From: Halomonas sp. CH40 | GTDB taxonomy: Bacteria; Pseudomonadota; Gammaproteobacteria; Pseudomonadales; Halomonadaceae | Direction: 5' to 3' | Assembly (NCBI GenBank): GCA_041875495.1 | Contig: CP112982.1 | Span: forward strand, 3,410,001 to 3,474,000 | DNA: 64,000 bases | In this document: piece by piece, positions 2,058 through 40,132 of the stretch | How positions within the stretch are numbered: position 1 is the first letter of the stretch | Layout of the letters: every line of letters begins with the position of its first letter | The notes under the pieces: model-generated | Told to the model about the DNA's origin: nothing | The model's input: only the letters and a program-made list of their open reading frames with translations | The model's database searches: none | Program-made: the position numbers and the translations under genes

Positions 2058-3410
2058 TTAACTAATATCCTGCCTTTTCGCCATGGGGAACGCTTTGTTT
2101 AATCCACCATGAACGCCCTGAGGCGAATGACCTTGTGGAGACTCGGTTTCAGGATAGGGCCTCGCCGATATTTCCACCAGGTCAAGCCCTAGTACTTCAA
2201 CATGTGGTGGTACACGCAGTAGGTTGAACTTTTTCAATGCGTAAGAGATTCCCCAACCTGGGATAAAGCCGGTTAACGCCATAACCACAGCGCCTACCAA
2301 CTGGCCGGTGAAAGAAATATCCGGCATCCCTTCTGCATTGGCAAACCCTGCCGCGAAGATACCCACCAGCACGACGCCGTAAAAACCGCAGAAACCATGA
2401 ACCGCAAAGGCGCCCACAGAGTCATCCAGGCCGCGCTGTTCAAGGAAGTTGCCCACTTTGGCCATTAACGCACCACCGCTGGCCGCCAGCGCAAACGCCA
2501 GGCCGGGATAGTAAAGATCCAGACCGGCTGCCACGGTGATGATACCGCCCAAGCCACCTGACATGGTCCAGAAGGGGTCTCTTGATATCAGGTAGGCTCC
2601 GATAACACCGCCTGCAAAACCCATGACAGTGTTGAAGGCAAAAGCCGACAGGTTGGTCTGGGTTCCATAAATGGTCGTCCAGCCAATATCGCCGGTATTG
2701 AAGATGATGCAGCCGCCGAGAAAACCGAAGAAACCGACAATGATCATCATCAGCCCAAGCAGCGACATGGGCATGTTGTGCGGTGGGATTGCCTGGGGCT
2801 TACCGTTTTTAAACTTGCCAATTCTGGCGCCCAGGTTCATCAATACTCCTAGGGCAAAGAACCCGGCAACCGCATGGACGACCCCTGCTGCCCCAACATC
2901 ATGATAGCCAAACTGGGTGAGTAGCCAGCCGCTTGGGTGCCAGCCCCAGGACCCGGCCAGTATCCATACGCCACCCCCCAATATGACGGCAAGTGTCAGG
3001 AAGGCACTCAAACGAATTCGTTCGATGACGGCTCCAGAAAGGATAGAGCCTGTAGTCGCCCCAAAAAGAGCGAACGCCGCGAAAAATATCCCTGTGCCCA
3101 TATCGTTGACATCAGGGCGCATACTGGCGCTCCAGGGAAGCGCCGCCGAGGCATCAATGGGAATCAGGCCATTGGGAAAGGCGTTGTAAATCCACCAGCC
3201 CACAAAATAGAAGGCCGGAATCACTGACGCCAGCGTAAGGATGTTTTTCATCCCTGATGCCAGCGCATTCTTGGTGCGCGAGGCACCAATTTCGTAAGAC
3301 AGGAAACCTGCGTGAATCAGGAACATAATGGCAATACACCACCAGTAAAACACCTCTATATTCATTGCCTGATGCATCTCGAAGATGCCTTTTAGTTCAT
3401 CGGTCGTCAT
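2058..3410 (-). CDS. amt: Ammonium transporter (Amt/Mep/Rh family), first copy
   Basis: This 450-residue polytopic protein matches the Amt family across its length, with about eleven hydrophobic spans. Both pore histidines are visible, in VVHAVAG (first half) and FAVHGFCG (second half). The family conducts ammonium, or ammonia plus a proton, and often methylammonium too, across the inner membrane. The C-terminal tail, which in AmtB contacts PII proteins, is about 50 residues long and ends with a Pro/Gly/His-rich stretch. Upstream there is a sigma-54-like promoter at 3616-3630 and an NtrC-like palindrome at 3818-3834. That fits induction under nitrogen limitation. A small membrane-protein gene follows. 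Position next to tdm suggests a role in capturing amines or ammonium released from them; a specific methylamine role is inferred, not shown. Confidence 0.93.
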   Translation of the reverse strand: MTTDELKGIFEMHQAMNIEVFYWWCIAIMFLIHAGFLSYEIGASRTKNALASGMKNILTLASVIPAFYFVGWWIYNAFPNGLIPIDASAALPWSASMRPDVNDMGTGIFFAAFALFGATTGSILSGAVIERIRLSAFLTLAVILGGGVWILAGSWGWHPSGWLLTQFGYHDVGAAGVVHAVAGFFALGVLMNLGARIGKFKNGKPQAIPPHNMPMSLLGLMMIIVGFFGFLGGCIIFNTGDIGWTTIYGTQTNLSAFAFNTVMGFAGGVIGAYLISRDPFWTMSGGLGGIITVAAGLDLYYPGLAFALAASGGALMAKVGNFLEQRGLDDSVGAFAVHGFCGFYGVVLVGIFAAGFANAEGMPDISFTGQLVGAVVMALTGFIPGWGISYALKKFNLLRVPPHVEVLGLDLVEISARPYPETESPQGHSPQGVHGGLNKAFPMAKRQDIS

Positions 3411-3615
3411 GTTGTTCCCCTATGTGTAAAGCGTGACAGTGAAATCACCTGGCTGTTTTAACCAGAGAGTTTTCGTAGTAATAAACCATTTTCTGTTGCA
3501 TTCAATGACGATGATTCTTTAACACTTACCTTTATAAACAGCATTAAAACGGCTACTAGCCAACGCTCATCCCAACATTAACAGCAGCCTTTTTAAATGC
3601 CTTAAGTTAAATAGA

Positions 3616-3630
3616 GCAACATGCATGCCA
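3616..3630 (-). promoter_or_regulatory. Candidate sigma-54 promoter of amt1
   Basis: The minus strand reads TGGCAT-N5-TTGC, one base from the sigma-54 consensus TGGCAC-N5-TTGC with correct spacing. It lies about 205 bp before the amt start codon. Confidence 0.6.
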
Positions 3631-3883: not shown

Positions 3884-6199
3884 TTAACTACGCACGCGAG
3901 TACGCTCCTTGTCATAAAACGGCAAGGCAACCACTTCCGCCGGCAGGCGTTTCTGGTGCCCATCAAGGCGACCCACTTCTAGCTGGGTACCAGAGCTTGC
4001 AAACTCGGGTGCCAGACGACAAAGGGCTATCGATTGCTTAAGCAGCGGTGATTGGGTAGCACTGGTCACCTGCCCCACCGGAAAGCGTCCATGAAAGATC
4101 TGATCCCCATGATCCACCAGTTCCGTACTATGAATGATCAGTCCCATTAACTTGTGGCGACTTTCCGGTGCCTGCCGTGCCATCGCCTCCCGGCCAACAA
4201 AGTCGTCTTCCTTGGTTTTCATTGGCACGGTGAAACCAATACCCGCTTCAAACGGATTGGTTTCCGGGCAGAATTCATGGTCAGCAAAAATCAGCCCCGC
4301 TTCGATGCGCAGCATATCCAGTGCATCCAGCCCTAAGGGCGCTAAGCCGAACGCTTGCCCCGCCTCCCAGATGGTATCCCAAAGACGTTCGCCATGGTCA
4401 GGGTGGCACCAGACTTCAAACCCCAGCTCGCCGGTGTAGCCGGTACGCGAGACCATAAGAGGAATGCCCTCCGGCCCGCCCAACCGGCCAATCATAAAAT
4501 GGAACCAGCTTAACTGCGCGACGCTCGTCTGGGTTTCAGCGTTCCACACAAGCTGGCTGAGCAGCTCACGGCTGAACGGCCCCTGGATCGCCAGGTTGTG
4601 CAGTTGCTGGGTGGACTCACGAATACTGACCTTATAACCCTGGCGGCTAGCCAGCTCACGCAGCCAGATACCACTATACGGGTCGCCGCAGATCCACCGG
4701 AACGCCTGTTCGCCCATCCGAAAAAGCGTGCCATCGTCGAGCATGCCGCCGGTTTCATTGCAGGCGGCTGAGTAAGCGACTTCGCCAACGGATAAACGCC
4801 GCACATTCCGGGTCAAGGCGTATTGCAGCAGGCGTTCAGCATCCGGCCCCACCACTTCAAACTTGCGCAAGGGTGTCAGGTCCATGACCGCAACCCGTTC
4901 ACGGCAGGCAAGGTATTCGGCACGCCGCCCCCAGCCTTCAAACTCGCTGGGTAGCCAGTAGCCGCGATATTCAATGAAGCGCTGGGTCAGGGCCGATGTC
5001 CGACGGTGAAAGGCGGTTTGCAGTGTCATGCGGGGCAGTTCCTCCGGGGTAGTCCGGTTAGCAATTGAACGCGGAAATTCATGCTCGGCTGAGTAGATGC
5101 GTACCTGTATATCGGTGGGCGTCCATCCGTTAGCGGAGTCAATGTCGTCCGGACACGCGGACGACGCACACACCAGGTCGCGCTTCGCGCGCAGCAGGAC
5201 ATAGTCGCCAGCTCGCGACCAGGGCTCATCTGCCGATAGCGTGCCGCAGGGTTCAACGTGCGTATTGAAAAAGAAATTGATGGCTGGCCAGCCAGCGCGA
5301 GGGGCGATGTTAAAGACCGCCAGTTCACGGTTAAAATTCTCGGTACAACTGATATGGCCAAAATAGCCGCTGTCTTCGTAGAATTTTGGCGTACATGCCA
5401 GCATAAAACTGTCATGCCGCCCGACTGTGTCCTGCACCACTTCAAGCATGGGCTGAAGACGTTGATCGGCAAAGCGCGAAAACAGGCCGGGCTGCGGCAT
5501 CGCGCAATTGGCCAGCGTGCGTGTTGCCGCCGCGTCCAGGGTCACCGTCTCGCCCAGGTCCAGGGCATCTTTATCAAAGGCAATAAAGTCCGAACACTGC
5601 TTGCCTGACACATCGATGATCTGAATCCACTCACCTGCACGAACCTGATAGGTACGCGCACTGCTATGCGGAATGTGGATGTCGTTAATAGGCTCGGCTA
5701 AAGGCGCTGGCAGGATCGGTAAATGCTCAGGCAAGTGCCAGTGAATCACGTCCAGTTCCGTGGCGGGTGACTGCTCGGAGACCGCCATGTCGTTGCCGGG
5801 GGCCACCAGCACCAACGTTAGCAGCGCGCTATCCAGAGGGCAGCTGAGTTCAAGAGGCAACTGCCGCCCGGGAATATGACCTCCCTGTGACAGCAGTTCA
5901 GTATCAATCTGCCAAGAATCGAACCGGGCTTTCAACCGCTTGGCAGCCGCATTACCCTGTTCAAGCTGGCGCTGTGTCAGCGCGGCGGACGGCTGCAGCG
6001 CTATCCCCATGGAAGCCGTCACGGCTTGGTTATCCTGGTCAAGCGCCAACAAATCGCAGCCCTGCTCCCCATCTGGCGACGTGATGCTCAGACGCTCCCC
6101 CGGTAATAGCGGTAAACGCAGGGCATGCTGGCCAGCGATACGATAGCGCCGGCAAGGCGTTTCCAGCGCCTGCTGCTTAGAGTGATGCCAACTACCCAT
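3884..6199 (-). CDS. tdm: Trimethylamine N-oxide demethylase (DUF1989-GcvT fusion)
   Basis: This 771-residue protein joins an N-terminal DUF1989 region (about residues 1-380) to a C-terminal GcvT/aminomethyltransferase region (about 390-765), the architecture of the Tdm enzymes described in Methylocella and marine Rhodobacteraceae. Tdm splits TMAO into dimethylamine and formaldehyde in the cytoplasm; the C-terminal domain binds tetrahydrofolate, which can take up the formaldehyde. DUF1989 hallmarks are seen at SCTENFNRE and EPCGTL, with a further cysteine in SSACPDD; the cysteines are likely metal ligands. The start is supported by a GAGG site 8 nt upstream of ATG 6199. The gene is divergent from the kinase operon and lies in the same cluster as tmm, dmm and the N-methylglutamate genes, which makes a generic aminomethyltransferase role unlikely. 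Confidence 0.87.
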   Translation of the reverse strand: MGSWHHSKQQALETPCRRYRIAGQHALRLPLLPGERLSITSPDGEQGCDLLALDQDNQAVTASMGIALQPSAALTQRQLEQGNAAAKRLKARFDSWQIDTELLSQGGHIPGRQLPLELSCPLDSALLTLVLVAPGNDMAVSEQSPATELDVIHWHLPEHLPILPAPLAEPINDIHIPHSSARTYQVRAGEWIQIIDVSGKQCSDFIAFDKDALDLGETVTLDAAATRTLANCAMPQPGLFSRFADQRLQPMLEVVQDTVGRHDSFMLACTPKFYEDSGYFGHISCTENFNRELAVFNIAPRAGWPAINFFFNTHVEPCGTLSADEPWSRAGDYVLLRAKRDLVCASSACPDDIDSANGWTPTDIQVRIYSAEHEFPRSIANRTTPEELPRMTLQTAFHRRTSALTQRFIEYRGYWLPSEFEGWGRRAEYLACRERVAVMDLTPLRKFEVVGPDAERLLQYALTRNVRRLSVGEVAYSAACNETGGMLDDGTLFRMGEQAFRWICGDPYSGIWLRELASRQGYKVSIRESTQQLHNLAIQGPFSRELLSQLVWNAETQTSVAQLSWFHFMIGRLGGPEGIPLMVSRTGYTGELGFEVWCHPDHGERLWDTIWEAGQAFGLAPLGLDALDMLRIEAGLIFADHEFCPETNPFEAGIGFTVPMKTKEDDFVGREAMARQAPESRHKLMGLIIHSTELVDHGDQIFHGRFPVGQVTSATQSPLLKQSIALCRLAPEFASSGTQLEVGRLDGHQKRLPAEVVALPFYDKERTRVRS

Positions 6200-6285
6200 A
6201 GTGTAACCTCGTGTTGTCCGTTCCGGTTTTGTTCAGCCTGGGGCTATAAAGGTGCGTCGCGGTCGTCTGATACTCCCTTTATGGT

Positions 6286-6300
6286 GCAGGTGGCGTGCCC
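6286..6300 (-). promoter_or_regulatory. Weak sigma-54-like promoter of tdm
   Basis: The minus strand reads GGGCAC-N5-CTGC, which keeps the GG and GC core dinucleotides but misses two consensus bases. It lies 87 bp before the tdm start codon. Treat as tentative. Confidence 0.3.
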
Positions 6301-6488
6301 GCCCCCACCGGAGAACCGTGATGCGCCAACAATTTTCTTTCTGATAAAAATACTTTACTCGCAGTAGGAAGCTGCACAATCGGCCATGGGGGGTAATCAC
6401 GAAGGAGTAACCAGCCTGTACTGGCATGAAACCTGCTAGTAACAGGGCTAACGCGCGTAAGGCATGAACGTCGGTGATGGGAGGAGGT

Positions 6489-7655
6489 ATGGCTATCAGT
6501 CTCAGTGGCTGGATTGAACGTCGGGTAATTCAACCTGAAAAAACGTCTCAGCCGGAACCGCTCATAAGCGACCAGGTACTCAACGGGCTTACCTTGCGCC
6601 TCGCCGCATGCCACCACCTGGCGGTTGACTTACCGACGGTTCTTACCTGGTTGCAACGTCAGCTTCCAGCCACCTACACCGCTACCGAAGGTTCATGTTT
6701 ATGCCTCGCCTTGCGAATGTCGCAGGCCCACTCGCTGACCCTGGTGACGCCTTCCGGCATTACCCTGACAGCAGATCAGGCCACCGCTATGGAAGCGGCG
6801 TTAACCACGCGCTATCGACGTACAGACGACCTCGTCAATGGGAGCAGGGAAATACCCTCACAGCGTCAGCTTCCATGCTGGCCCCACCCCCTATACGCAC
6901 AGCAGCTTACGCTGGATAAAAAGGCGGAGGCTTGGTTATTGCTACCAGGCGGATGGCCGCAGAACCCGTTTTTCGAGCCGTTACGCAGAGCCTTCATGGA
7001 AGGCTTAAAGATTTGCCTGGCGCACCATCAGCACCTCGAACAGGCGGTGGAAGAAGAGCGTCGCGACTATGCCGCCGGCTTACACGACACCATTGCCCAA
7101 GAGCTGGGGTATTTGCGGCTGCGCACCTCGCGCCTGGAGAAGGCTTGCCGACAGCTTGCGCCGGAACTTGAGACGCTGGCCAGCGATATCCACCTGCAAA
7201 CCCAGCGAACCTACCGCCAAACCCGCGAATTGATCACCACCGCCAGGCTCACTCTGGAGGATGATTCACTCCACTTGGGGCTAGTACGCACAGTAGAGGA
7301 ATTCGAGCAGCTTTCAGGGCTGGTATTCGAACTGGACAATCGAGCCCAACCAGAAGGCTTATCCAGACAGACCGCCATTCAGGTGCTTCTGATTGTGCGC
7401 GAAGCTCTCAGCAACAGCGTGCGTCATTCTCACGCCTCGCATGTTCGTATTCAGCTTTTCCCGCAGGTTAAAGGGGAGTTGCTGGTGCGTGTCGATGACA
7501 ATGGACAGGGCATCATTTCGGAAGATGCTGGCAGCGGCAGTTTCGGGCTGGGCATCATGCACGAGCGTGCCCAAAAGATAGGTGGCCACCTGCACGTAGG
7601 ATCACTATCCAGTGGCGGTACCCGTGTCGAATTGATCGTTACGGATGACAGATAG
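6489..7655 (+). CDS. Soluble NarX-type sensor histidine kinase
   Basis: The C-terminal half is a HisKA_3/HATPase kinase of the NarX/DegS type. The phospho-acceptor histidine is in AAGLHDTIAQELG (about residue 199), and the ATP-binding boxes are REALSNSVRHSHA, VDDNGQG and GSFGLGIMHERA. The N-terminal 190 residues match no domain I recognise and contain no membrane span, so the kinase should sense a cytoplasmic signal. I chose ATG 6489, which has a GGGAGG site 4 nt upstream; GTG 6474 and ATG 6477 are alternatives. The gene leads a tight three-gene operon (gap of 9 bp to the regulator) placed between tdm and tmm. A role in sensing TMA, TMAO or a product is inferred from that position. Confidence 0.9.
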   Translation: MAISLSGWIERRVIQPEKTSQPEPLISDQVLNGLTLRLAACHHLAVDLPTVLTWLQRQLPATYTATEGSCLCLALRMSQAHSLTLVTPSGITLTADQATAMEAALTTRYRRTDDLVNGSREIPSQRQLPCWPHPLYAQQLTLDKKAEAWLLLPGGWPQNPFFEPLRRAFMEGLKICLAHHQHLEQAVEEERRDYAAGLHDTIAQELGYLRLRTSRLEKACRQLAPELETLASDIHLQTQRTYRQTRELITTARLTLEDDSLHLGLVRTVEEFEQLSGLVFELDNRAQPEGLSRQTAIQVLLIVREALSNSVRHSHASHVRIQLFPQVKGELLVRVDDNGQGIISEDAGSGSFGLGIMHERAQKIGGHLHVGSLSSGGTRVELIVTDDR

Positions 7656-7664
7656 AGAAATGCG

Positions 7665-8342
7665 ATGAACCCTACACGAGTTGTTTTAGTCGATGACCAT
7701 CCTTTATTTCGACGTGGTGTTGCACAACTGCTCAGCGAAAGTCAGCGCTTTGATATATTGGAAGAGTTCGGCAATGCTGAAGAGCTCCTCCAGAACCTGG
7801 AGCGCCTGGATCCTGAGCTATTACTGATCGATCTGCAAATGCCGGGCACCAGCGGCTTATCCCTGCTGGAGCAGATCAAGGCCAGGTGTGAAGATACCTG
7901 GGTCGTAATGCTGACCGCGTCAGACGACAGCCATGACTTACTGAAAGCCATTCAGCTTGGCGCTGATGGCTACCTGCTCAAAGATACCGATCCGGATATC
8001 ATTCTCGAGCGTCTTGATGCTCTCCTGCATGGCAAGATAGCGCTCAATGATGATGTTGTCATGATGCTGGCGCAGCACTTGCGTGCCGATCGCCTGGATA
8101 TTATGGATGACATGCCCGCTTCCTCAAGCTGGGCGGAAGGCTTGACCGAGCGCGAACGCCATACCTTGATGTGGATTACCAAAGGACTTAGCAACAAGCT
8201 GATTGCCCGTGAACTGGGCATCAGTGACAGCACCGTCAAAGTGTATGTCAAAAACCTGCTGCGTAAGCTCAATGTCAACTCGCGTCTCGAACTGGCCGCC
8301 TGGGTACACACGCATCCTTTACCTGATGAGGATGCGCCATGA
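7665..8342 (+). CDS. NarL/FixJ-type response regulator
   Basis: This 225-residue protein has an N-terminal receiver domain with acidic pocket VDD (residues 9-11), phospho-acceptor Asp56 in LLIDLQMPG and the conserved lysine in GYLLKD. A LuxR-type helix-turn-helix lies at about residues 155-215 (LTERERHTLMWITKGLSNK onward). It is the obvious partner of the kinase just upstream. Its stop codon overlaps the start of the PAS gene (ATGA), which implies translational coupling. Targets are unknown; the divergent tdm and the following tmm are the nearest candidates. Confidence 0.93.
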   Translation: MNPTRVVLVDDHPLFRRGVAQLLSESQRFDILEEFGNAEELLQNLERLDPELLLIDLQMPGTSGLSLLEQIKARCEDTWVVMLTASDDSHDLLKAIQLGADGYLLKDTDPDIILERLDALLHGKIALNDDVVMMLAQHLRADRLDIMDDMPASSSWAEGLTERERHTLMWITKGLSNKLIARELGISDSTVKVYVKNLLRKLNVNSRLELAAWVHTHPLPDEDAP

Positions 8343-9145
8343 TGTGCCTTTTGATGCCATTCACCTTCAGGAAGCGTCCCCCCAACACACCGCCTTGTTC
8401 AAGCTTGCTGGATAGCCTGAACGAAGCCGTACTGGTCGTAAATGACAACAGTGAAATCTTGTTTGCCAACCGTAGCTGGCAGCATTTGATTGGCGCCGAC
8501 AGTGAGGCTACACCGTCCCACCTGCTGGAGTATGTTCACCCTGCTGACCGAGATGTCTGGCAACAGGTGTGCTGTCAGGTAAATCGTCAGGAAAGTCCCG
8601 CACCGTTATGGTTGAGAGTGATGGGGGCCGGCCATGAGCTACGCTGGTGTGAGTTACGCGCCCAACCCCTCGGGGTTGGCTCTGCCTGGCCTGCCAGCTT
8701 ATCCCTCTGTGATATTACGCCTCAGGTACAACGTAATCAGGTTCTCTCTGCTAGCCATCGCAGCCTGTCGCAACTGGTGAATGGACTTCCTGTGATGGTT
8801 TATCGAGCCCGTAACAATCGCCGCTGGACCATGGAATACGTTAGTGACGGTTGCTACGGATTGACCGGCTACACGGCCGAAACGCTGCTTAACCATTCCC
8901 TGATCAGCTACGGAGACATGATCCACCCCCAGGATGCCGACCAGGTCTGGGAAGAAGTTCAGGATGCCTTGCGTGAACACCGCAGCTTTGAGCTGGATTA
9001 TCGTATTCAGTGCGCCGATGGACATCTGCTTCGTGTGAACGAAAAGGGACATGGCGTTTACTCACATAACGCCGCTGTGCTTGGCGTCGAAGGCGTTATC
9101 ATCGCCTTTGACGCCGACCCATCGACCTCTCATACCGATAGATAA
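8339..9145 (+). CDS. Stand-alone double-PAS protein
   Basis: The 268-residue protein holds two PAS-like modules, about residues 22-130 (LDSLNEAVLVVNDNSEILFA) and 145-262 (GLPVMVYRARNNRRWTMEYV, with a PAC-like segment FELDYRIQCADGHLLRVNE), joined by a short linker. There is no kinase, cyclase, phosphodiesterase or DNA-binding output domain and no membrane span. It overlaps the response-regulator gene by 4 bp. It may be a separate ligand-binding input for the kinase, which lacks a recognisable sensor domain. That is inference from operon structure. Confidence 0.85.
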   Translation: MMCLLMPFTFRKRPPNTPPCSSLLDSLNEAVLVVNDNSEILFANRSWQHLIGADSEATPSHLLEYVHPADRDVWQQVCCQVNRQESPAPLWLRVMGAGHELRWCELRAQPLGVGSAWPASLSLCDITPQVQRNQVLSASHRSLSQLVNGLPVMVYRARNNRRWTMEYVSDGCYGLTGYTAETLLNHSLISYGDMIHPQDADQVWEEVQDALREHRSFELDYRIQCADGHLLRVNEKGHGVYSHNAAVLGVEGVIIAFDADPSTSHTDR

Positions 9146-9284
9146 CTCTTTTTGACTACCCTCTCTGAGTAATTTTGTTGTCTGTGCCGATCCACTAGGT
9201 TGGTAGTGAGCGAGCGAGAGGTTTTCTCGCCTCCTATCACGACATTTCGTTCAAATCTGTCAGGACACGTACAGGAAACTAGCT

Positions 9285-10667
9285 ATGAAAAAGCGTATCG
9301 CAATCATCGGCGCCGGCCCAAGCGGTCTGGCACAGCTTAGAGCCTTTCAATCGGCACATGAAAAGGGCGGAGAGCCACAGGAGCTGGTCTGTTTTGAGAA
9401 ACAGTCTGACTGGGGTGGGCTTTGGAACTACACTTGGCGCACCGGCCTTGATGAAAACGGTGAGCCGGTTCACGGCAGTATGTACCGATACCTTTGGTCC
9501 AACGGGCCGAAAGAATGCCTGGAGTTCGCCGACTACTCTTTTGAAGAGCATTTTGGTCGTCCTATTGCCTCTTATCCGCCACGGGCTGTGCTCTGGGATT
9601 ATATAAAAGGCCGCGTTGAGAAAGCCGGTGTTCGTAAGTTCATCCGCTTCAATTGTCCAGTGCGCCACATCAGCTACGACGAGGCCAACGGGACTTTTAC
9701 CGTCATTGCCCACGACCACACTACGGATACGCTCAGCACTGAGACATTCGATCATGTCATCGTCGCTTCCGGGCATTTCTCTACCCCTAACGTGCCGGAA
9801 TTCGAAGGTTTCGAAAATTTTGGCGGACGCATTCTCCATGCCCATGATTTTCGCGATGCGTTGGAGTTCAAAGACAAGGATCTGTTACTGGTGGGCAGTA
9901 GCTATTCTGCCGAAGATATTGGCTCTCAGTGCTACAAATATGGTGCTCGAACGATCACCACCAGTTACCGCTCTCGACCTATGGGCTTCAAGTGGCCTGA
10001 TAACTGGGAAGAAAAACCACTACTATTGCGAGTAGATCGCGATAGAGCATACTTTGCGGACGGCACCTCAAAACCTATCGACGCTATTATCCTGTGTACC
10101 GGTTACTTGCACCACTTCCCCTTCCTTGAAGAGTCACTGCGCTTGAAAACCAGCAATCGTATGTGGCCGCTGGATCTTTACAAAGGCGTTGCCTGGGAGC
10201 ACAACCCCAAGCTGTTCTACCTAGGCATGCAAGATCAGTTTTATACCTTTAATATGTTTGATGCACAGGCCTGGTACGTACGCGACATCATTCTTGGGCG
10301 TATTCCGCTGCCAAGCCAAAATGAAATGCGCAGCGATAGTGCCGCTTGGCGAGCACGCGAGGAAACACTGGAAAGCGATGAAGACATGATTGTTTTCCAG
10401 GGGGATTACGTGAAGTCCCTGATTGATGAAACCGACTATCCCAGCTTTGACATTGACGGCGTTAACAAGACGTTTCTGGAATGGGAGCATCACAAGCATG
10501 ATGACATCATGGCCTTCCGTAACCACTCCTACCGCTCCTTGATGACAGGCACCATGGCACCTTCCCACCACACGCCCTGGTTACACGCGATGGACGACTC
10601 ATTGGAGGCCTATCTGGCCACGCATGACGATGCCACCACCGCCCAAGCGGATGCAATGGAAACCTGA
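9285..10667 (+). CDS. tmm: Trimethylamine monooxygenase
   Basis: This 460-residue flavin-containing monooxygenase has the FAD motif GAGPSG at residues 8-13, the FMO-type segment [13 protein letters not shown], the NADPH motif [10 protein letters not shown] and a late [10 protein letters not shown] motif. These, the length and the start [15 protein letters not shown] fit bacterial Tmm, which oxidises trimethylamine to TMAO with NADPH and O2. Tmm-like FMOs may also act on dimethylsulfide. An AGGA site precedes ATG 9285. The neighbouring tdm consumes the product, which supports the call. A stand-alone FMO of other specificity is the main alternative. Confidence 0.88.
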
Positions 10668-25643: not shown

Positions 25644-26777
25644 ATGACAACGTTATGGCGTACTTCTGCCCTTGCCGAACGCCACCATGCACTCGGTGCG
25701 ACACTGGAAGACTGGAACGGCATGGGGACTGCGTTTCGTTACGCGGGAGCGGATACCGCCGATCACCACGCCGCCATTCGCACCCAAGCAGGCTTGATGG
25801 ATGTCTCTGGTCTGAAAAAGATCCATTGCGTTGGTCCGCATGCCAAAGTGCTGCTAGACCATGCCACCACGCGGGATATGTCAAAGCTTTACCCGGGAAA
25901 ATCTGTCTATGCCACCATGCTCAACGAGGCTGGCAAGTTCGTGGATGATTGCATTGTCTACTGCCTGGCGCCGAATGCGTACTTGGTGGTGCATGGCACC
26001 GGCCTGGGCCAGGAAATGCTCACTCTAGGTGCCTTGGGTCGTAACGTCAGCCTGATGTTTGACGATGATCTTCACGACTTGTCACTGCAAGGGCCATTGG
26101 CCGTCGACTTTCTTGAAAAGCATGTTGAGGGTATTCGCGACCTGCGTTACTTCCACCATTTGCAGACCCGCCTGTTTGGCTTTGATGTGATGATTTCACG
26201 CACCGGCTATACCGGTGAGCGCGGCTATGAGATTTTTTGCAAGGCCAAGGATGCTCCCTCTGTGTGGGACGAAATCCTCGACAAGGGTGCCCCCATGGGC
26301 ATCGTGCCATGCGGTTTCGAGACACTCGATTGGCTACGCGTGGAAAGTAACCTGCTGTTCTATCCCGTTGATAACTCCGAGACATACCCCTTCCCCGACC
26401 AGCCCGCCGGCGACACGCTATGGGAGCTGGGGCTGGACTTCACCGTCTCCAAGGACAAGAACGAGTTCCGGGGGGCAGGCGAACACTTCCGCCTCAAGGG
26501 CAAGGAGCGCTTCAAGATCTTTGGTGTATTGATTGACAGCGAGGAGGCGGCAAGCGCTGGGGACACCCTCTGGGCAGATAACAAGCAGGTCGGCATTGTT
26601 ACCGAAGGCATGTTTTCAAGGCTCAGTGGCCGCTCCATGGCACTGGCGCGCCTTGATGTTCCTTATGCCGAGCACGGTGTGCCGTTGGAAATACGTGGCA
26701 GCCTGCAAGCCACTGCCAGCAGCCATAGCTTGCCTTTTGATGACCCTGACAAACAAAAGCGCATTGCCAAAGGCTAG
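25644..26777 (+). CDS. dmmD: GcvT-like tetrahydrofolate subunit, dimethylamine monooxygenase-associated
   Basis: The 377-residue protein is a full-length GcvT-family aminomethyltransferase-like protein (SRTGYTGERGYEIF, a C-terminal barrel at about residues 285-375). No gcvH or gcvP is nearby, so a glycine-cleavage role is unlikely. The Pseudomonas N-demethylase has a tetrahydrofolate-binding GcvT-like subunit, and dmm loci of marine bacteria include dmmD, so I assign it as the folate partner that captures formaldehyde from dimethylamine. It has a GGAAGGAG-type ribosome binding site and its own sigma-54-like promoter, is separated from dmmCBA by the mgs genes and stands ahead of purU-folD-mgd on the same strand. 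Confidence 0.75.
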   Translation: MTTLWRTSALAERHHALGATLEDWNGMGTAFRYAGADTADHHAAIRTQAGLMDVSGLKKIHCVGPHAKVLLDHATTRDMSKLYPGKSVYATMLNEAGKFVDDCIVYCLAPNAYLVVHGTGLGQEMLTLGALGRNVSLMFDDDLHDLSLQGPLAVDFLEKHVEGIRDLRYFHHLQTRLFGFDVMISRTGYTGERGYEIFCKAKDAPSVWDEILDKGAPMGIVPCGFETLDWLRVESNLLFYPVDNSETYPFPDQPAGDTLWELGLDFTVSKDKNEFRGAGEHFRLKGKERFKIFGVLIDSEEAASAGDTLWADNKQVGIVTEGMFSRLSGRSMALARLDVPYAEHGVPLEIRGSLQATASSHSLPFDDPDKQKRIAKG

Positions 26778-36520: not shown

Positions 36521-38084
36521 TAACCCGAATTTCTCACAGGGTATAAAAGAAAGCGGCTGAAAATGTTAAAGTTTCAGGACCTTACACCAAAAACCAACAT
36601 CAACAGCCGCTTCCAAAATGGTACCTGAAAAACTGACCTTCTCGCCACTCTCACGCCGCCAGATTGAAGCCGATTTCTCCGGTGGCCACATTACCTCCGA
36701 TGCTGGGTTGCTTCTGCTTCGTGAAATCGACAAACAACATCGCCTGACGCGCCGCTTGGCATCGGTACTGCATGATCCTCGGGCACCGGAGCAGATTCGC
36801 CACAAACTCGACACCCTGGTTCGTCAGCGGGTGTTCGGTGTCGCCGCTGGCTACGAAGATTTTAACGACCATGAAGCCCTGCGCTATGATCAGGCCCTTC
36901 AGACGGCACTGGATGAAAATGAGGTGCTGGCGGGCAAGTCAACGCTGTCCCGGATAGAGCAGAACGCTGATCGACAAGCGATAGTGAAGGCCCATGAGCT
37001 ACTCTGGCATCACTTCATCGAGCAGCATGACGAACCACCCAAAGAGATTGTGCTGGACTTTGATGGCACTGATATTCCCGTGCATGGCGACCAACCCGGC
37101 AAGTTCTTTAACCGCTATTACAATCACCATTGCTACTTCCCACTGTATGTCTTCTGTGGCCACCATCTGCTGGTGAGCTATCTGCGCACCAGTGACCGCA
37201 GCGACAGCCGCCACAGCTGGGCCATCCTCGCCCTACTTGTCCGCTTTATCCGTCAATACTGGCCCGACACCCGCATTGTATTACGCGGCGATAGCCATTT
37301 TTGTCGCCCCCGGATGCTGAACTGGTGCGATCGGCATCACGTCGACTACATCGTGGGTATTGGCAAGAACAGTCGGCTGCTCAAGGAAGTGGACGTTCCC
37401 ATGATGCTGGTACGCAAGACCCAGTGGCAGGTAGGAGGGAAAGTGGCAGAGACGTTCCGCTTCCAATATCAAGCGCACTCTTGGAAGTACCCGCGCTGGG
37501 TGGTGGCCCGCCTGGAAGAAGGCGAGCTTGGCTCCAATCCCCGGTTTATCGTCAGTTCCCGTTACGACGATGGCTTCAAGCTTTACTACGAGCAGTACTG
37601 TGCTCGGGGCGACATGGAGAACCGAATCAAGGATCAACAACTGAGCTTGTTTGCTGACCGCACGTCCAGCACGCACTGGTGGGCTAATCAATGGCGGCTG
37701 ATCTTATCAGGCTTTGCCTATACGCTGTTCGAGCGGTTACGGGCTTACCTGAAGAACACGCCCTTCGCACGCATGAGCCCAAGTAGCCTCAGGCTCAAAC
37801 TCATCAAGGTGGGCGCGGTTATCATCCGCAATACGCGCCGAGTCCGAGTACTCATGAGTGACAGCTATCCCTATAAAACGGCGCTATCCGATCTCGTCAG
37901 ACAGTTGGTGCCGAACTGAATGCTCGGGCGCCCCCGGCCCGATGCAATGGGGGAAAGGGGGAAGTGTGCCTGAATGACGGAAAATGGTTAAAAAGTAGGC
38001 TATTTAAGCCGTGCCAATAGGTGTTTAGCGATATTATGGTCTGAGTGCGGTGCTGGCTGAGGTGCTATGAGAAATCCGGGCTAG
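36520..38084 (+). mobile_element. IS1380-family insertion sequence
   Basis: Imperfect 20-bp terminal inverted repeats (17 of 20 identical) lie at 36520-36539 and 38065-38084 and bracket a single transposase gene, giving an element of 1565 bp, normal for IS1380. The 4-bp flanks (CAAC left, TAGC right) do not match, so no target duplication is seen; the insertion may be old or followed by a rearrangement. Confidence 0.85.
36618..37919 (+). CDS. IS1380-family DDE transposase
   Basis: The 433-residue protein is a full-length IS1380-type transposase. Catalytic acidic residues are probably in LDFDGTDIPVHG, VLRGDSHF and the ENRIKDQQ segment (the family ENxIKE-like site). No frameshift or internal stop is seen, so it may still be active. 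Confidence 0.93.
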   Translation: MVPEKLTFSPLSRRQIEADFSGGHITSDAGLLLLREIDKQHRLTRRLASVLHDPRAPEQIRHKLDTLVRQRVFGVAAGYEDFNDHEALRYDQALQTALDENEVLAGKSTLSRIEQNADRQAIVKAHELLWHHFIEQHDEPPKEIVLDFDGTDIPVHGDQPGKFFNRYYNHHCYFPLYVFCGHHLLVSYLRTSDRSDSRHSWAILALLVRFIRQYWPDTRIVLRGDSHFCRPRMLNWCDRHHVDYIVGIGKNSRLLKEVDVPMMLVRKTQWQVGGKVAETFRFQYQAHSWKYPRWVVARLEEGELGSNPRFIVSSRYDDGFKLYYEQYCARGDMENRIKDQQLSLFADRTSSTHWWANQWRLILSGFAYTLFERLRAYLKNTPFARMSPSSLRLKLIKVGAVIIRNTRRVRVLMSDSYPYKTALSDLVRQLVPN

Positions 38085-38228
38085 TAGCTGTGTGAATTGC
38101 ACGTTGTTTCCTCATCCTTGGTGTGACGATCACAATATATGCCGCTGTGTCCAACATCCCTCAAAGGCCGAAGGTCATTTCAGGCTACCATAGTGCTTAA
38201 TTTTATTGAAACCAAGACAACGTAAATA

Positions 38229-38334
38229 TGTGACCACACTGGTGGCTAGAAAAAGCCAAAGGTCATAATAGGATAGATATAAAAGGAATGTTATGTAGAG
38301 ATTGTGGCCACAATTTGGTCACAGGATGGTCACA
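38229..38334. repeat. Cluster of TGTGRCCA motifs beside tRNA-Arg
   Basis: TGTGACCACA occurs at 38229-38238 and TGTGGCCACA at 38303-38312, and the complement TGGTCACA occurs at 38316-38323 and 38327-38334, 11 bp apart. The stretch 38085-38380 holds no gene. Clustered short repeats next to a tRNA 3' end resemble integrase arm-type sites, so this may be the remnant of an integrative-element attachment region. No integrase gene is present in the window. Confidence 0.45.
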
Positions 38335-38335
38335 A

Positions 38336-38372
38336 GCAAAAAATAAGGGCCTACGAATTAACGTAAGCCCTT
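38336..38372 (-). terminator. Terminator of tRNA-Arg
   Basis: An 11-bp stem with one mismatch (38345-38355 with 38362-38372, loop AATTAA) is followed on the minus strand by a T-rich run (plus-strand AAAAAATAA at 38338-38346). It lies 9 bp after the tRNA 3' end. Confidence 0.8.
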
Positions 38373-38380
38373 GAAATAAT

Positions 38381-38457
38381 TGGCGCGCCCAGCAGGATTC
38401 GAACCTGCGACCCTCGGCTTCGGAGGCCGATACTCTATCCAACTGAGCTATGGGCGC
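38381..38457 (-). tRNA. tRNA-Arg (anticodon CCG)
   Basis: The minus strand folds as a complete cloverleaf: acceptor GCGCCCA paired with TGGGCGC, D-arm GCTC/GAGT, anticodon arm TCGGC-CTCCGAA-GCCGA giving anticodon CCG, T-arm GCAGG-TTCGAAT-CCTGC, and an encoded 3' CCA at 38381-38383. Its 3' end points towards the IS1380 element. Confidence 0.97.
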
Positions 38458-38617
38458 ACAGTCGTTGCGTATGCTACCTGTGTGGGCGGTTGGTGTCCAG
38501 CGGTGTGGGGGAGATGTGTTGCCAGATTGGTGCGCGCTGGTGCATTCTTTCAGGGTGTTAAATGATATTGATCTACCTTATCGAAAACATGAGATTCCTT
38601 TGACGTCCTCTCCCCGC

Positions 38618-39685
38618 CTAAAGTCGGGGGATTCCAACGGCTTGAGGGCAACGTCCTGCCCCGAGACGCAGGATATTTCGGGCTGCATTCACATCCCGGT
38701 CATGCGAGGCACCACACTCGCTGCATATCCAGTCTCTTATTCCAAGACCTGCGATACCTTTCGGCCTTTCCTTGGGCAGTGCGCCACAATTCGAGCAGGT
38801 CTGGGTAGTGTAGGCTTCATTGACTTCTTTGAAGACGGTGCCTGCGTGATCGCATTTGTATTCCAGCATCGTCTTCAACTGATGCCAGCCAGCGTCCAGC
38901 ACTGACTTGGCCATATGGGTTTTTGTCAACTTTGAGGCGCTGACATTACCTACGACGATAGTGCCGTACTGGCGGGTCAATTTGCGGCTGAACTTGTGGT
39001 TGGCATCCTTGCGACGATTCTTGATCTTGGCATGGATCGCTTTCACACGCCGCTTGTTCCCCGCTCTCTGGGCCGCTGCCAGTTTGGCTTCCAAGACGCG
39101 ATAGAAGCGTCCTGCCTCCAGCTTTTGGCCGTCGCTGCATGTCGCGGTATCTTTAAGGCCAAGATCAATGCCAACCTCGCCCTGGGCCTTATTAGGCGGA
39201 ATATCCACCTCAACCACGACATTAAAGTACCAGCGGCCACGGGCATCTTCATTGAAACTGCCTGAACGGAATTTGTAGTGGCTAAGGCCGTAGCTATCCC
39301 AGACCTTGAAGTAAGTGCCATTGTGGAACACCTGACCGTTTTTCCACTTCGCCGCGCCGGTATTCACTGGAATCCAGCCGAGTGAGCGACGAACACCGCC
39401 GGACTTGCGCCACGCCAACCGCGACTTCTTGAACTGTTTGCGGCGTGTTGTGTATTCACGGGCGACTTCCTGCAACGTTTGACTGTGCAGACCCAGGTCC
39501 TTACCTGCACCTCTGGTGTAGGGGTGCATATCGTAGGCTGATAGAAACAGACCTCGCTCACGAATCGCTCGTGAACTCAGTTCGTTAAGGTAGTTCCAGA
39601 CAAAGTTCACGCGGCGTGCCATACGATTGAGTTGGTCGACGTGCTTGTCTTTGACTCGAACCTTGAGGGTCTTGGTCTGTTTCAT
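38618..39685 (-). CDS. tnpB: TnpB RNA-guided nuclease of an IS605-type element
   Basis: The 355-residue protein has the TnpB/Cas12-type RuvC residues in GIDLGLKDTATCSDG (Asp), FKEVNEAYTTQTC (Glu) and DRDVNAARN (Asp), and the zinc ribbon CSNCG/CSECG. All key residues are present, so it may be functional. TnpB proteins are guided by an RNA made from the transposon right end; its scaffold would overlap the end of this gene and the hairpin at 38612-38629, and the guide would come from the flank left of about 38600. I chose ATG 39685; the open frame reaches 39721, which would overlap the promoter gap to tnpA. Confidence 0.92.
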   Translation of the reverse strand: MKQTKTLKVRVKDKHVDQLNRMARRVNFVWNYLNELSSRAIRERGLFLSAYDMHPYTRGAGKDLGLHSQTLQEVAREYTTRRKQFKKSRLAWRKSGGVRRSLGWIPVNTGAAKWKNGQVFHNGTYFKVWDSYGLSHYKFRSGSFNEDARGRWYFNVVVEVDIPPNKAQGEVGIDLGLKDTATCSDGQKLEAGRFYRVLEAKLAAAQRAGNKRRVKAIHAKIKNRRKDANHKFSRKLTRQYGTIVVGNVSASKLTKTHMAKSVLDAGWHQLKTMLEYKCDHAGTVFKEVNEAYTTQTCSNCGALPKERPKGIAGLGIRDWICSECGASHDRDVNAARNILRLGAGRCPQAVGIPRL

Positions 39686-39706
39686 GCTTTGGAGTATAGT
39701 TGGCCT

Positions 39707-40132
39707 ATGAACACTAAACAAGAATTACGCACGGGCAGGCACTGCGTTTTTATGATTCACGCCCACTTGGTCTTTGTGACAAAATTCCGTGGCAGAATCT
39801 TTAACGCTGAACACCTCGATTCCCTCGAAGCGCTTTTTCGGCGGGTATGCGCTGACTTCGAAACAGCGTTGGTGGAATTTAATGGCGAGACGGATCACGT
39901 TCACCTGCTGGTGAACTACCCGCCAAAAATGGCGCTATCCAAGCTGGTGAACAGCCTGAAAGGCGTATCAAGCAGGCGTATGAAGCTATTGCACCCTGAG
40001 CTGGCGAAATCGGCATACCTGAAAAACGCCCTATGGAGTCCCAGTTACTTTGCAGGAAGTGTCGGTGGGGCACCTATATCGGTCGTCCGTCAATATATTG
40101 AGGAACAAAACCGCCCTAACAAGTCGCCCTAG
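39707..40132 (+). CDS. tnpA: TnpA Y1-HUH transposase of an IS605-type element
   Basis: The 141-residue protein from ATG 39707 has the HUH motif in ETDHVHLLVNYPP and the catalytic tyrosine in VVRQYIEEQ. It catalyses single-stranded peel-and-paste transposition. Upstream in-frame codons (from 39632) run through the start region of the divergent tnpB and are not likely to be translated. Only 21 bp separate the two start codons. Confidence 0.92.
   Translation: MNTKQELRTGRHCVFMIHAHLVFVTKFRGRIFNAEHLDSLEALFRRVCADFETALVEFNGETDHVHLLVNYPPKMALSKLVNSLKGVSSRRMKLLHPELAKSAYLKNALWSPSYFAGSVGGAPISVVRQYIEEQNRPNKSP

Follow-up and report, generated by a model that had tools for sequence, protein, structure and literature searches.

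A conserved kinase, NarL-type regulator and double-PAS protein beside tmm in Halomonas sp. CH40: a candidate split signaling system for methylated-amine catabolism

What do the three genes between the divergent genes for trimethylamine N-oxide (TMAO) demethylase (tdm) and trimethylamine monooxygenase (tmm) control in Halomonas sp. CH40, and how might they do so? We analyzed a 64,000-nucleotide stretch of this genome (contig CP112982.1, positions 3,410,001 to 3,474,000, hereafter the window), in which a first-pass annotation made from the letters alone had described a soluble histidine kinase, a NarL-type response regulator and a stand-alone double-PAS protein at 6489-9145. Open reading frames (ORFs), Pfam domains and hydropathy confirmed all three, and their flanks are indeed tdm on the minus strand and tmm on the plus strand (Table 1). 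The stop codon of the regulator gene and the start codon of the PAS gene overlap as ATGA, as expected from the translational coupling that had been claimed. The explanation we favor, with somewhat more confidence than doubt, is that these genes, which are of NarXL stock, encode a split system resembling NreABC, which would control tmm and be made under nitrogen limitation. The three-gene unit probably controls the first step of the trimethylamine pathway.

The unit is widely conserved. One scan of a genome collection gave 65 related loci, and in 58 of these the trio is contiguous, in the same order and on one strand, an arrangement that goes beyond chance given how often it recurs. Fifty-five of the 58 trios are accompanied by tmm, 52 by tdm and 22 by dmm, and none lacks all three. 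The start of the PAS gene, taken as the start codon nearest the regulator stop, lies -25 to +18 bases from that stop in all 58 trios, with an overlap of 4 bases in 28. In layout A, which comprises 27 loci plus the window, tmm follows the trio in the same orientation; in layout B it is divergent (24 loci; Pseudomonas, Stutzerimonas and Nitrincola); and in layout C dmm lies between tmm and the trio (4 loci; Paraburkholderia, P. panipatensis). No tmm was seen in three of the 58 trio loci. When 250 genomes from the family to which the window belongs were searched, the same six genomes, in three genera, matched both the PAS protein (E 1e-40) and Tdm (E 1e-150, all matches scoring under the Tdm family cut-off), and 23 matched Tmm, which suggests that the trio tracks TMAO breakdown and not tmm alone. 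Across 369 genomes of the class, Tmm matched 11 and the PAS profile 42 (E 1e-20), mostly within long proteins. A paper on Psychrobacter describes tmm as occurring without other genes of the pathway. The earlier proposals of a cytoplasmic three-part unit and of a tie to the methylamine pathway are thus both upheld, the former by the contiguous trios and the latter by the association with TMAO breakdown and by NarL-type operators at tmm in relatives.

Unsupervised motif searches upstream of tmm gave tTAcCCCTTTTggnnTACCC for layout A and TACCCCcAAgggGGTA for layout B, the latter with no shuffle run. Both are read as NarL-type heptamer pairs because they resemble the published engineered NarL site TACCCCTAAAGGGGTA (PMC4549865) and the NarL heptamer TACYYMT (PMC6152468). 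The layout A motif reached log-likelihoods of 244 (width 16) and 329 (width 20). Mononucleotide shuffles, three per width and run with fewer restarts than the real search, gave 50-53 and 63-68, respectively. The layout A tmm upstreams contain 28 TACYYMT heptamers, against 6.2 (largest 18) in shuffles that keep dinucleotides. As position weight matrix scores from a motif's own sites are partly circular, the published E. coli NarL site was used in their stead, and a locus was counted when its best match in the 200 bp next to tmm had at most 4 mismatches. Such a site was found at 22 of 28 layout A and 21 of 24 layout B tmm genes (43/52 together), compared with 0.7-2.1% of shuffles preserving base composition only, and at none of 27 examined tmm upstreams that are not beside a trio. 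These 27 controls are those with a retrieved locus, judged on flanks of about 1.5 kb, and four of them are second copies in trio-bearing genomes. Four genomes (L155, Cobetia-like; L112-L114 and L117) carry two tmm copies each, where the trio-side copy has NarL-type sites and the other has no match within 4 mismatches.

In layout C, where tmm lies apart from the trio, none of the four tmm upstreams has a NarL site, and a NarL-type site is present between dmm and the kinase gene in all four loci. In three of these it either overlaps neither of the two reading frames or precedes every possible start of the kinase, the case of L057 being ambiguous; kinase starts were extrapolated from one aligned stretch and may be off. 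At the same cut-off, no site was found upstream of the ammonium transporter gene amt in the same loci (0/35) or in 19 Dmm2 upstreams, the latter a weak negative control because that gene is inside an operon. Three Dmm1 site matches and two Dmm1 sigma54 matches were left out of the counts (gene cut at the locus end, stretch longer than 10 kb). The first-pass annotation had named both tmm and tdm as genes whose expression should depend on the trio. The sites at tmm (at dmm in one group) point to the former, but only 2 of 29 tdm upstreams have a site within 4 mismatches, which disfavors tdm as the main target. On the kinase side of the shared region, 10 of 30 loci have a NarL site within 200 bp and 11 within 300 bp, and control of tdm, or autoregulation, through these sites is possible. 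Layout B (L029-L054) shows a further element that is conserved, AAattttnTTTCTTttcaGT, at a distance of about 25-105 bp from where the kinase is extrapolated to start (Pseudomonas/Nitrincola; no shuffle run).

The regulator contains Response_reg and GerE domains, is 40% identical to E. coli NarL and retains both the receiver aspartate (Asp56) and the STVKV-VK segment. Its recognition segment reads STVKVYVKNLL, compared with STVKVHVKHML in E. coli NarL, and the NarL recognition residues are kept. Its nearest match is the NarL equivalog at 214.5 bits, below the cut-off of 250. Elsewhere, next to two narK-like genes, the same genome encodes a NarL of its own (319.7 bits, cut-off 250) together with a kinase resembling NarX (435.8 bits, cut-off 578), and this pair could account for the sites differently: NarL would read them, nitrate would control tmm, and the trio would do something else. 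We consider this distinctly unlikely, as the sites accompany the trio (layouts A and B have them at tmm, layout C has them between the dmm and kinase genes, and 0/27 tmm upstreams elsewhere have one, the NarL content of those 27 genomes not having been compared).

The kinase has HisKA_3 (29 bits, cut-off 24) and HATPase_c domains above the Pfam cut-off, and an alignment of 34 kinases shows His199, Asn309 and the glycines that were checked in every one of them. Its highest 19-residue Kyte-Doolittle mean is 1.14, so it has no predicted membrane span, in agreement with the first description. An alternative upstream GTG start is possible at 6474. The nearest named families are NarQ (157.8 bits, cut-off 553) and NarX (138.4 bits, cut-off 578), both far under cut-off and matched only over the C-terminal 200-230 or so residues. 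The statement that the kinase has no recognizable sensor domain holds for Pfam, which finds none, but is qualified by the structural model, where residues ~28-180 show a GAF-like order of elements, helix-helix-strand-strand-helix-strand-strand-long helix (whole-model mean predicted local distance difference test score 81.8, residues 111-124 below 50). The model is suggestive of a degenerate, cryptic GAF-like module, which this N-terminus may be. A profile alignment with NarX, NarQ and four related kinases begins in the last part of the module, and the structural matches listed for the kinase span residues 183-388 only. No conserved cysteine of the kind that holds the NreB-type Fe-S cluster was found in the invariant or nearly invariant columns of the 34 kinases.

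A GAF-like N-terminus would also suit an ordinary two-component pair in which the kinase receives its own input and the PAS protein acts elsewhere, and the evidence that connects PAS protein and kinase is itself indirect. This alternative is unlikely, as the PAS gene is kept in 58 of 58 trios, closely spaced to the regulator gene, and the N-terminus is the least conserved part of the kinase (mean majority conservation 0.35). The PAS protein was described as a bare double-PAS protein with no output, and Pfam does find two PAS folds and no output domain; its highest 19-residue hydropathy mean is 1.28. Fifty-three columns are invariant among 32 aligned relatives, and mean majority conservation is 0.77 in the linker, 0.72 in PAS-B and 0.52 in PAS-A. 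Since the linker and PAS-B are conserved and the kinase N-terminus is not, the PAS protein may carry a constant input or docking surface, and it is plausible that it supplies the input to the system. The Foldseek matches listed for it (LOV-PAS, HIF/ARNT, DosP and similar) have template modeling scores below 0.5, are generic for PAS and indicate no ligand. The LOV motif GXNCRFLQ was not found in the PAS alignment when read by eye. Among PAS proteins of named organisms, those of Vreelandella arctica (77%) and Halomonas (76%) come closest.

Promoters recognized by sigma54 have GG at -24 and GC at -12, 10 bp apart. A motif search upstream of the layout A kinase genes returned TGGCAcaaaanCTGCT, a sigma54-type promoter, and the window's own site at 6422 fits this spacing. 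The pattern is present in 25 of 30 layout A kinase upstreams, compared with 0.17% of shuffles. Counting both strands, the 64-kb window contains it six times. L053, which is outside the counted layout lists, also has it. None of 56 tdm or 55 tmm upstreams and only two of 19 dmm upstreams (L017 and L056) carry the pattern. It is also found upstream of amt in 28 of 35 related loci, and both RpoN and NtrC are encoded in the genome. A sigma70 and terminator scan of 6150-9400 found no promoter before tmm or the kinase gene, with counts not above shuffles, and no terminator between the PAS gene and tmm; read-through into tmm is therefore possible.

In the proposed mechanism, the three genes would form a split cytoplasmic system of NarX/NarQ-NarL stock through which Gammaproteobacteria, and some Paraburkholderia, govern the catabolism of methylated amines. 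In layout A, nitrogen shortage would lead, through the sigma54 promoter and probably driven by NtrC, to transcription of the operon. The double-PAS protein would sense a pathway-linked signal (the first-pass annotation had suggested TMA, TMAO, formaldehyde or redox state) and set the activity of the kinase in trans, much as the GAF protein NreA acts on NreB, and the kinase would phosphorylate the regulator. The phosphorylated regulator would then bind the NarL-type heptamer pairs of 7-2-7 form that precede tmm (or, in loci with dmm as the neighbor, those next to dmm), possibly including the weak element in the window, and activate transcription. The first and last of these steps are proposed because of the evidence in the sequences, and the PAS-to-kinase step because of gene linkage, the contrast in conservation and the precedent of NreA and NreB. 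The same parts could instead repress tmm, which we regard as somewhat unlikely. NarL itself represses frdA and activates narG (PMC4549865), TmoR represses tmm in Ruegeria (PMC13390433), and start sites at these loci are unmapped, but a sigma54-type promoter for the operon would fit an activator that is made when amines are needed.

Several points weigh against an NreABC-like system acting on tmm. The window's own tmm element (9142-9161) has 6/16 mismatches to the E. coli site and would fail alone, and the sole match with at most 4 mismatches in the whole window, at position 4669, is inside tdm. Three further tmm genes away from the trio (G442, G460 and G607) lie outside the control set. The sigma54 pattern is absent upstream of the kinase in layouts B (0/24) and C (0/4), and the NtrC-like sites (at most 3 mismatches; 18 of 30 layout A upstreams, compared with 2.7% of shuffles) are for the most part half sites scored on a consensus. 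The loci are mutually related, so that locus counts are not independent.

In a tree of 84 PAS rows, 60 cluster together (support 99/97), these being the window, one duplicate and the 58 trio loci. The nearest rows are L098, L099, L100, L102 and L105 (fork 93/82, midpoint root). The five long proteins scanned (L069, which equals L098, with L100, L102, L104 and L105) are all PAS-PAS-GGDEF-EAL proteins. Those of L098, L100, L102, L104 and L105 each follow a NarX/NarL-like pair, and the pair of L099 is about 6 kb off. These proteins resemble the trio in having a homologous double PAS after such a pair, but they carry GGDEF and EAL, the gaps between genes are mostly larger, and the neighbors are others, with permease-like and GcvT-like genes at L100 and a glutamine synthetase-like gene at L105, all below cut-offs. 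A TorF-family putative porin is found near the kinase-regulator-long PAS loci L098, L101, L102, L104 and L105, a wider signaling family. Of the seven loci among the 65 that lack the trio arrangement, six have long proteins (L059 and L061-L065; Kapabacteria, Ignavibacteria and Bacteroidota). The seventh, L066 of Paraburkholderia ribeironis, has a PAS protein next to dmm genes in which part of a GGDEF domain comes after PAS (44.7 bits, covering positions 3-94 of the 161 in the profile), and is a possible intermediate. The 703-aa PAS ORFs of L029 and L032 were considered as retained GGDEF-EAL forms and rejected, since a stop codon ends the PAS protein at about 258 aa and the remainder is an unrelated gene in frame. 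On the tree of regulators (68 rows), two changes of label are required; one is L103, whose PAS gene differs in kind. L103 (the same gene as L075) has a cousin layout, in which a dmm cluster contains a 482-aa protein ending in PAS domains, with a 617-aa NarX-like kinase and a regulator on the other strand.

As the long form is more widely spread, GGDEF-EAL was more likely lost than gained, although the rooting is no proof. This allows a more tentative scenario, to which we give somewhat less than an even chance, in which a nitrate-type system was rewired to methylated amines: the double-PAS part would have been cut off a cyclic di-GMP (c-di-GMP) enzyme and kept as a free receptor for an intermediate of trimethylamine breakdown, and with the sigma54 promoter of the marine layout, tmm would answer to nitrogen lack and amines together. 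The nearest relatives being PAS-PAS-GGDEF-EAL proteins, the PAS protein might alternatively be a c-di-GMP adaptor, a partner or competitor of such enzymes. This is very improbable, as its gene is linked to the kinase-regulator pair and the amine genes, and its own 3.67-Mb one-contig genome has no second match to it (E 0.001).

Table 1. Features of the trio and its surroundings in the window
Feature	Position	Strand	Remarks
Soluble NarX/NarQ-like histidine kinase	6489..7655	+	388 aa; N-terminal ~28-180 possibly degenerate GAF; dimerization and histidine phosphotransfer domain with His199; catalytic and ATP-binding domain
NarL-like response regulator	7665..8342	+	225 aa; receiver Asp56
Stand-alone double-PAS protein	8339..9145	+	268 aa
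Weak NarL-type element ATAACTCTTTTTGACTACCC	9142..9161	+	Conserved place just after PAS gene, upstream of tmm
Sigma54-type promoter TGGCATGAAACCTGCT (GG-N10-GC)	6422..6437	+	Upstream of kinase gene
Tentative NtrC-like half site ACTCCCTTTATGGTGCA	6272..6288	+	4 mismatches to consensus
tmm, trimethylamine monooxygenase	9285..10667	+	Proposed target; NF058570, 841 bits (cut-off 675)
tdm, TMAO demethylase	3884..6199	-	Divergent neighbor; NF053776, 1063 bits (cut-off 1100)
Sigma54-type site TGGCATGCATGTTGCT	3615..3630	-	Upstream of amt (2058-3410)

The tdm product matches its family nearly end to end, yet scores below the cut-off. Other genes in the window encode the alpha subunit of a formate dehydrogenase (702 bits, cut-off 666), dmm products (HODM alpha-like, and DmmA family at 108 bits, cut-off 60), a P-II protein and a type III glutamine synthetase (655.6 bits, cut-off 469.6). 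Also present are folD and purU, together with genes that resemble those for glutamate synthase and sarcosine oxidase, both under their family cut-offs. Adjoining folD and purU, a 377-aa protein (25644-26777) resembles the C-terminal GcvT-like half of TMAO demethylase, with 240 bits to NF053776 (cut-off 1100). An IS1380-family transposase and a TnpB-family protein (36618-39721) lie downstream of the methylamine genes, and a tandem array at 1-1442, in which a 297-bp unit is repeated 4.9 times with 89% matches, results in repetitive ORFs on the minus strand.

If the proposal is right, TMAO-degrading Methylophaga, Marinobacterium, Amphritea, Pseudomonas and Halomonadaceae would have a conserved regulator, with named candidate sites, that differs from the known AraC-type one, and the trio would offer a case of possible separation between a c-di-GMP enzyme and its sensor module. 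Natural controls exist, in that tmm occurs with and without the trio, in four genomes within one and the same genome. No earlier account of the trio was found in the openly licensed literature (subscription papers were outside the search), and the accessible parts of PMC13352529, PMC6548844, PMC6514802 and PMC4543880 do not mention it. In Ruegeria pomeroyi, tmm and tdm are controlled by TmoR and the AraC-type TmaR, and the main text of the paper describing them does not use the terms "histidine kinase" or "response regulator" (PMC13390433). The Halomonas genome has seven AraC-domain genes (E 1e-5), none within the window.

To our knowledge, the nearest two-component system of one-carbon (C1) metabolism is FlhRS. 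In Paracoccus denitrificans it controls C1 and methylamine oxidation (PMC8879981). Compared by description only, in the accessible text of that paper, FlhRS differs from the trio in having other targets and no separate PAS protein. The E. coli NarX/NarQ-NarL systems provide the closest named families for the kinase and regulator and the same type of operator in relatives, but the trio is below the curated cut-offs and lacks a membrane sensor, and its genome has the separate NarL/NarX-like pair. Staphylococcal NreABC likewise combines a separate sensor protein, a sensor kinase and a response regulator, and the sensor protein inhibits the kinase in the absence of its ligand (PMC8139620). There, NreA is a nitrate-binding GAF protein and NreB has an oxygen-sensitive Fe-S cluster, whereas the trio has a double-PAS protein in place of GAF, a kinase without conserved cysteines, and amine genes as neighbors. 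The earlier claim that no methylamine regulator of such a layout had been described therefore stands within the open-licence literature, but NreABC is a close precedent in another pathway, which makes the layout new for methylamines rather than new in kind.

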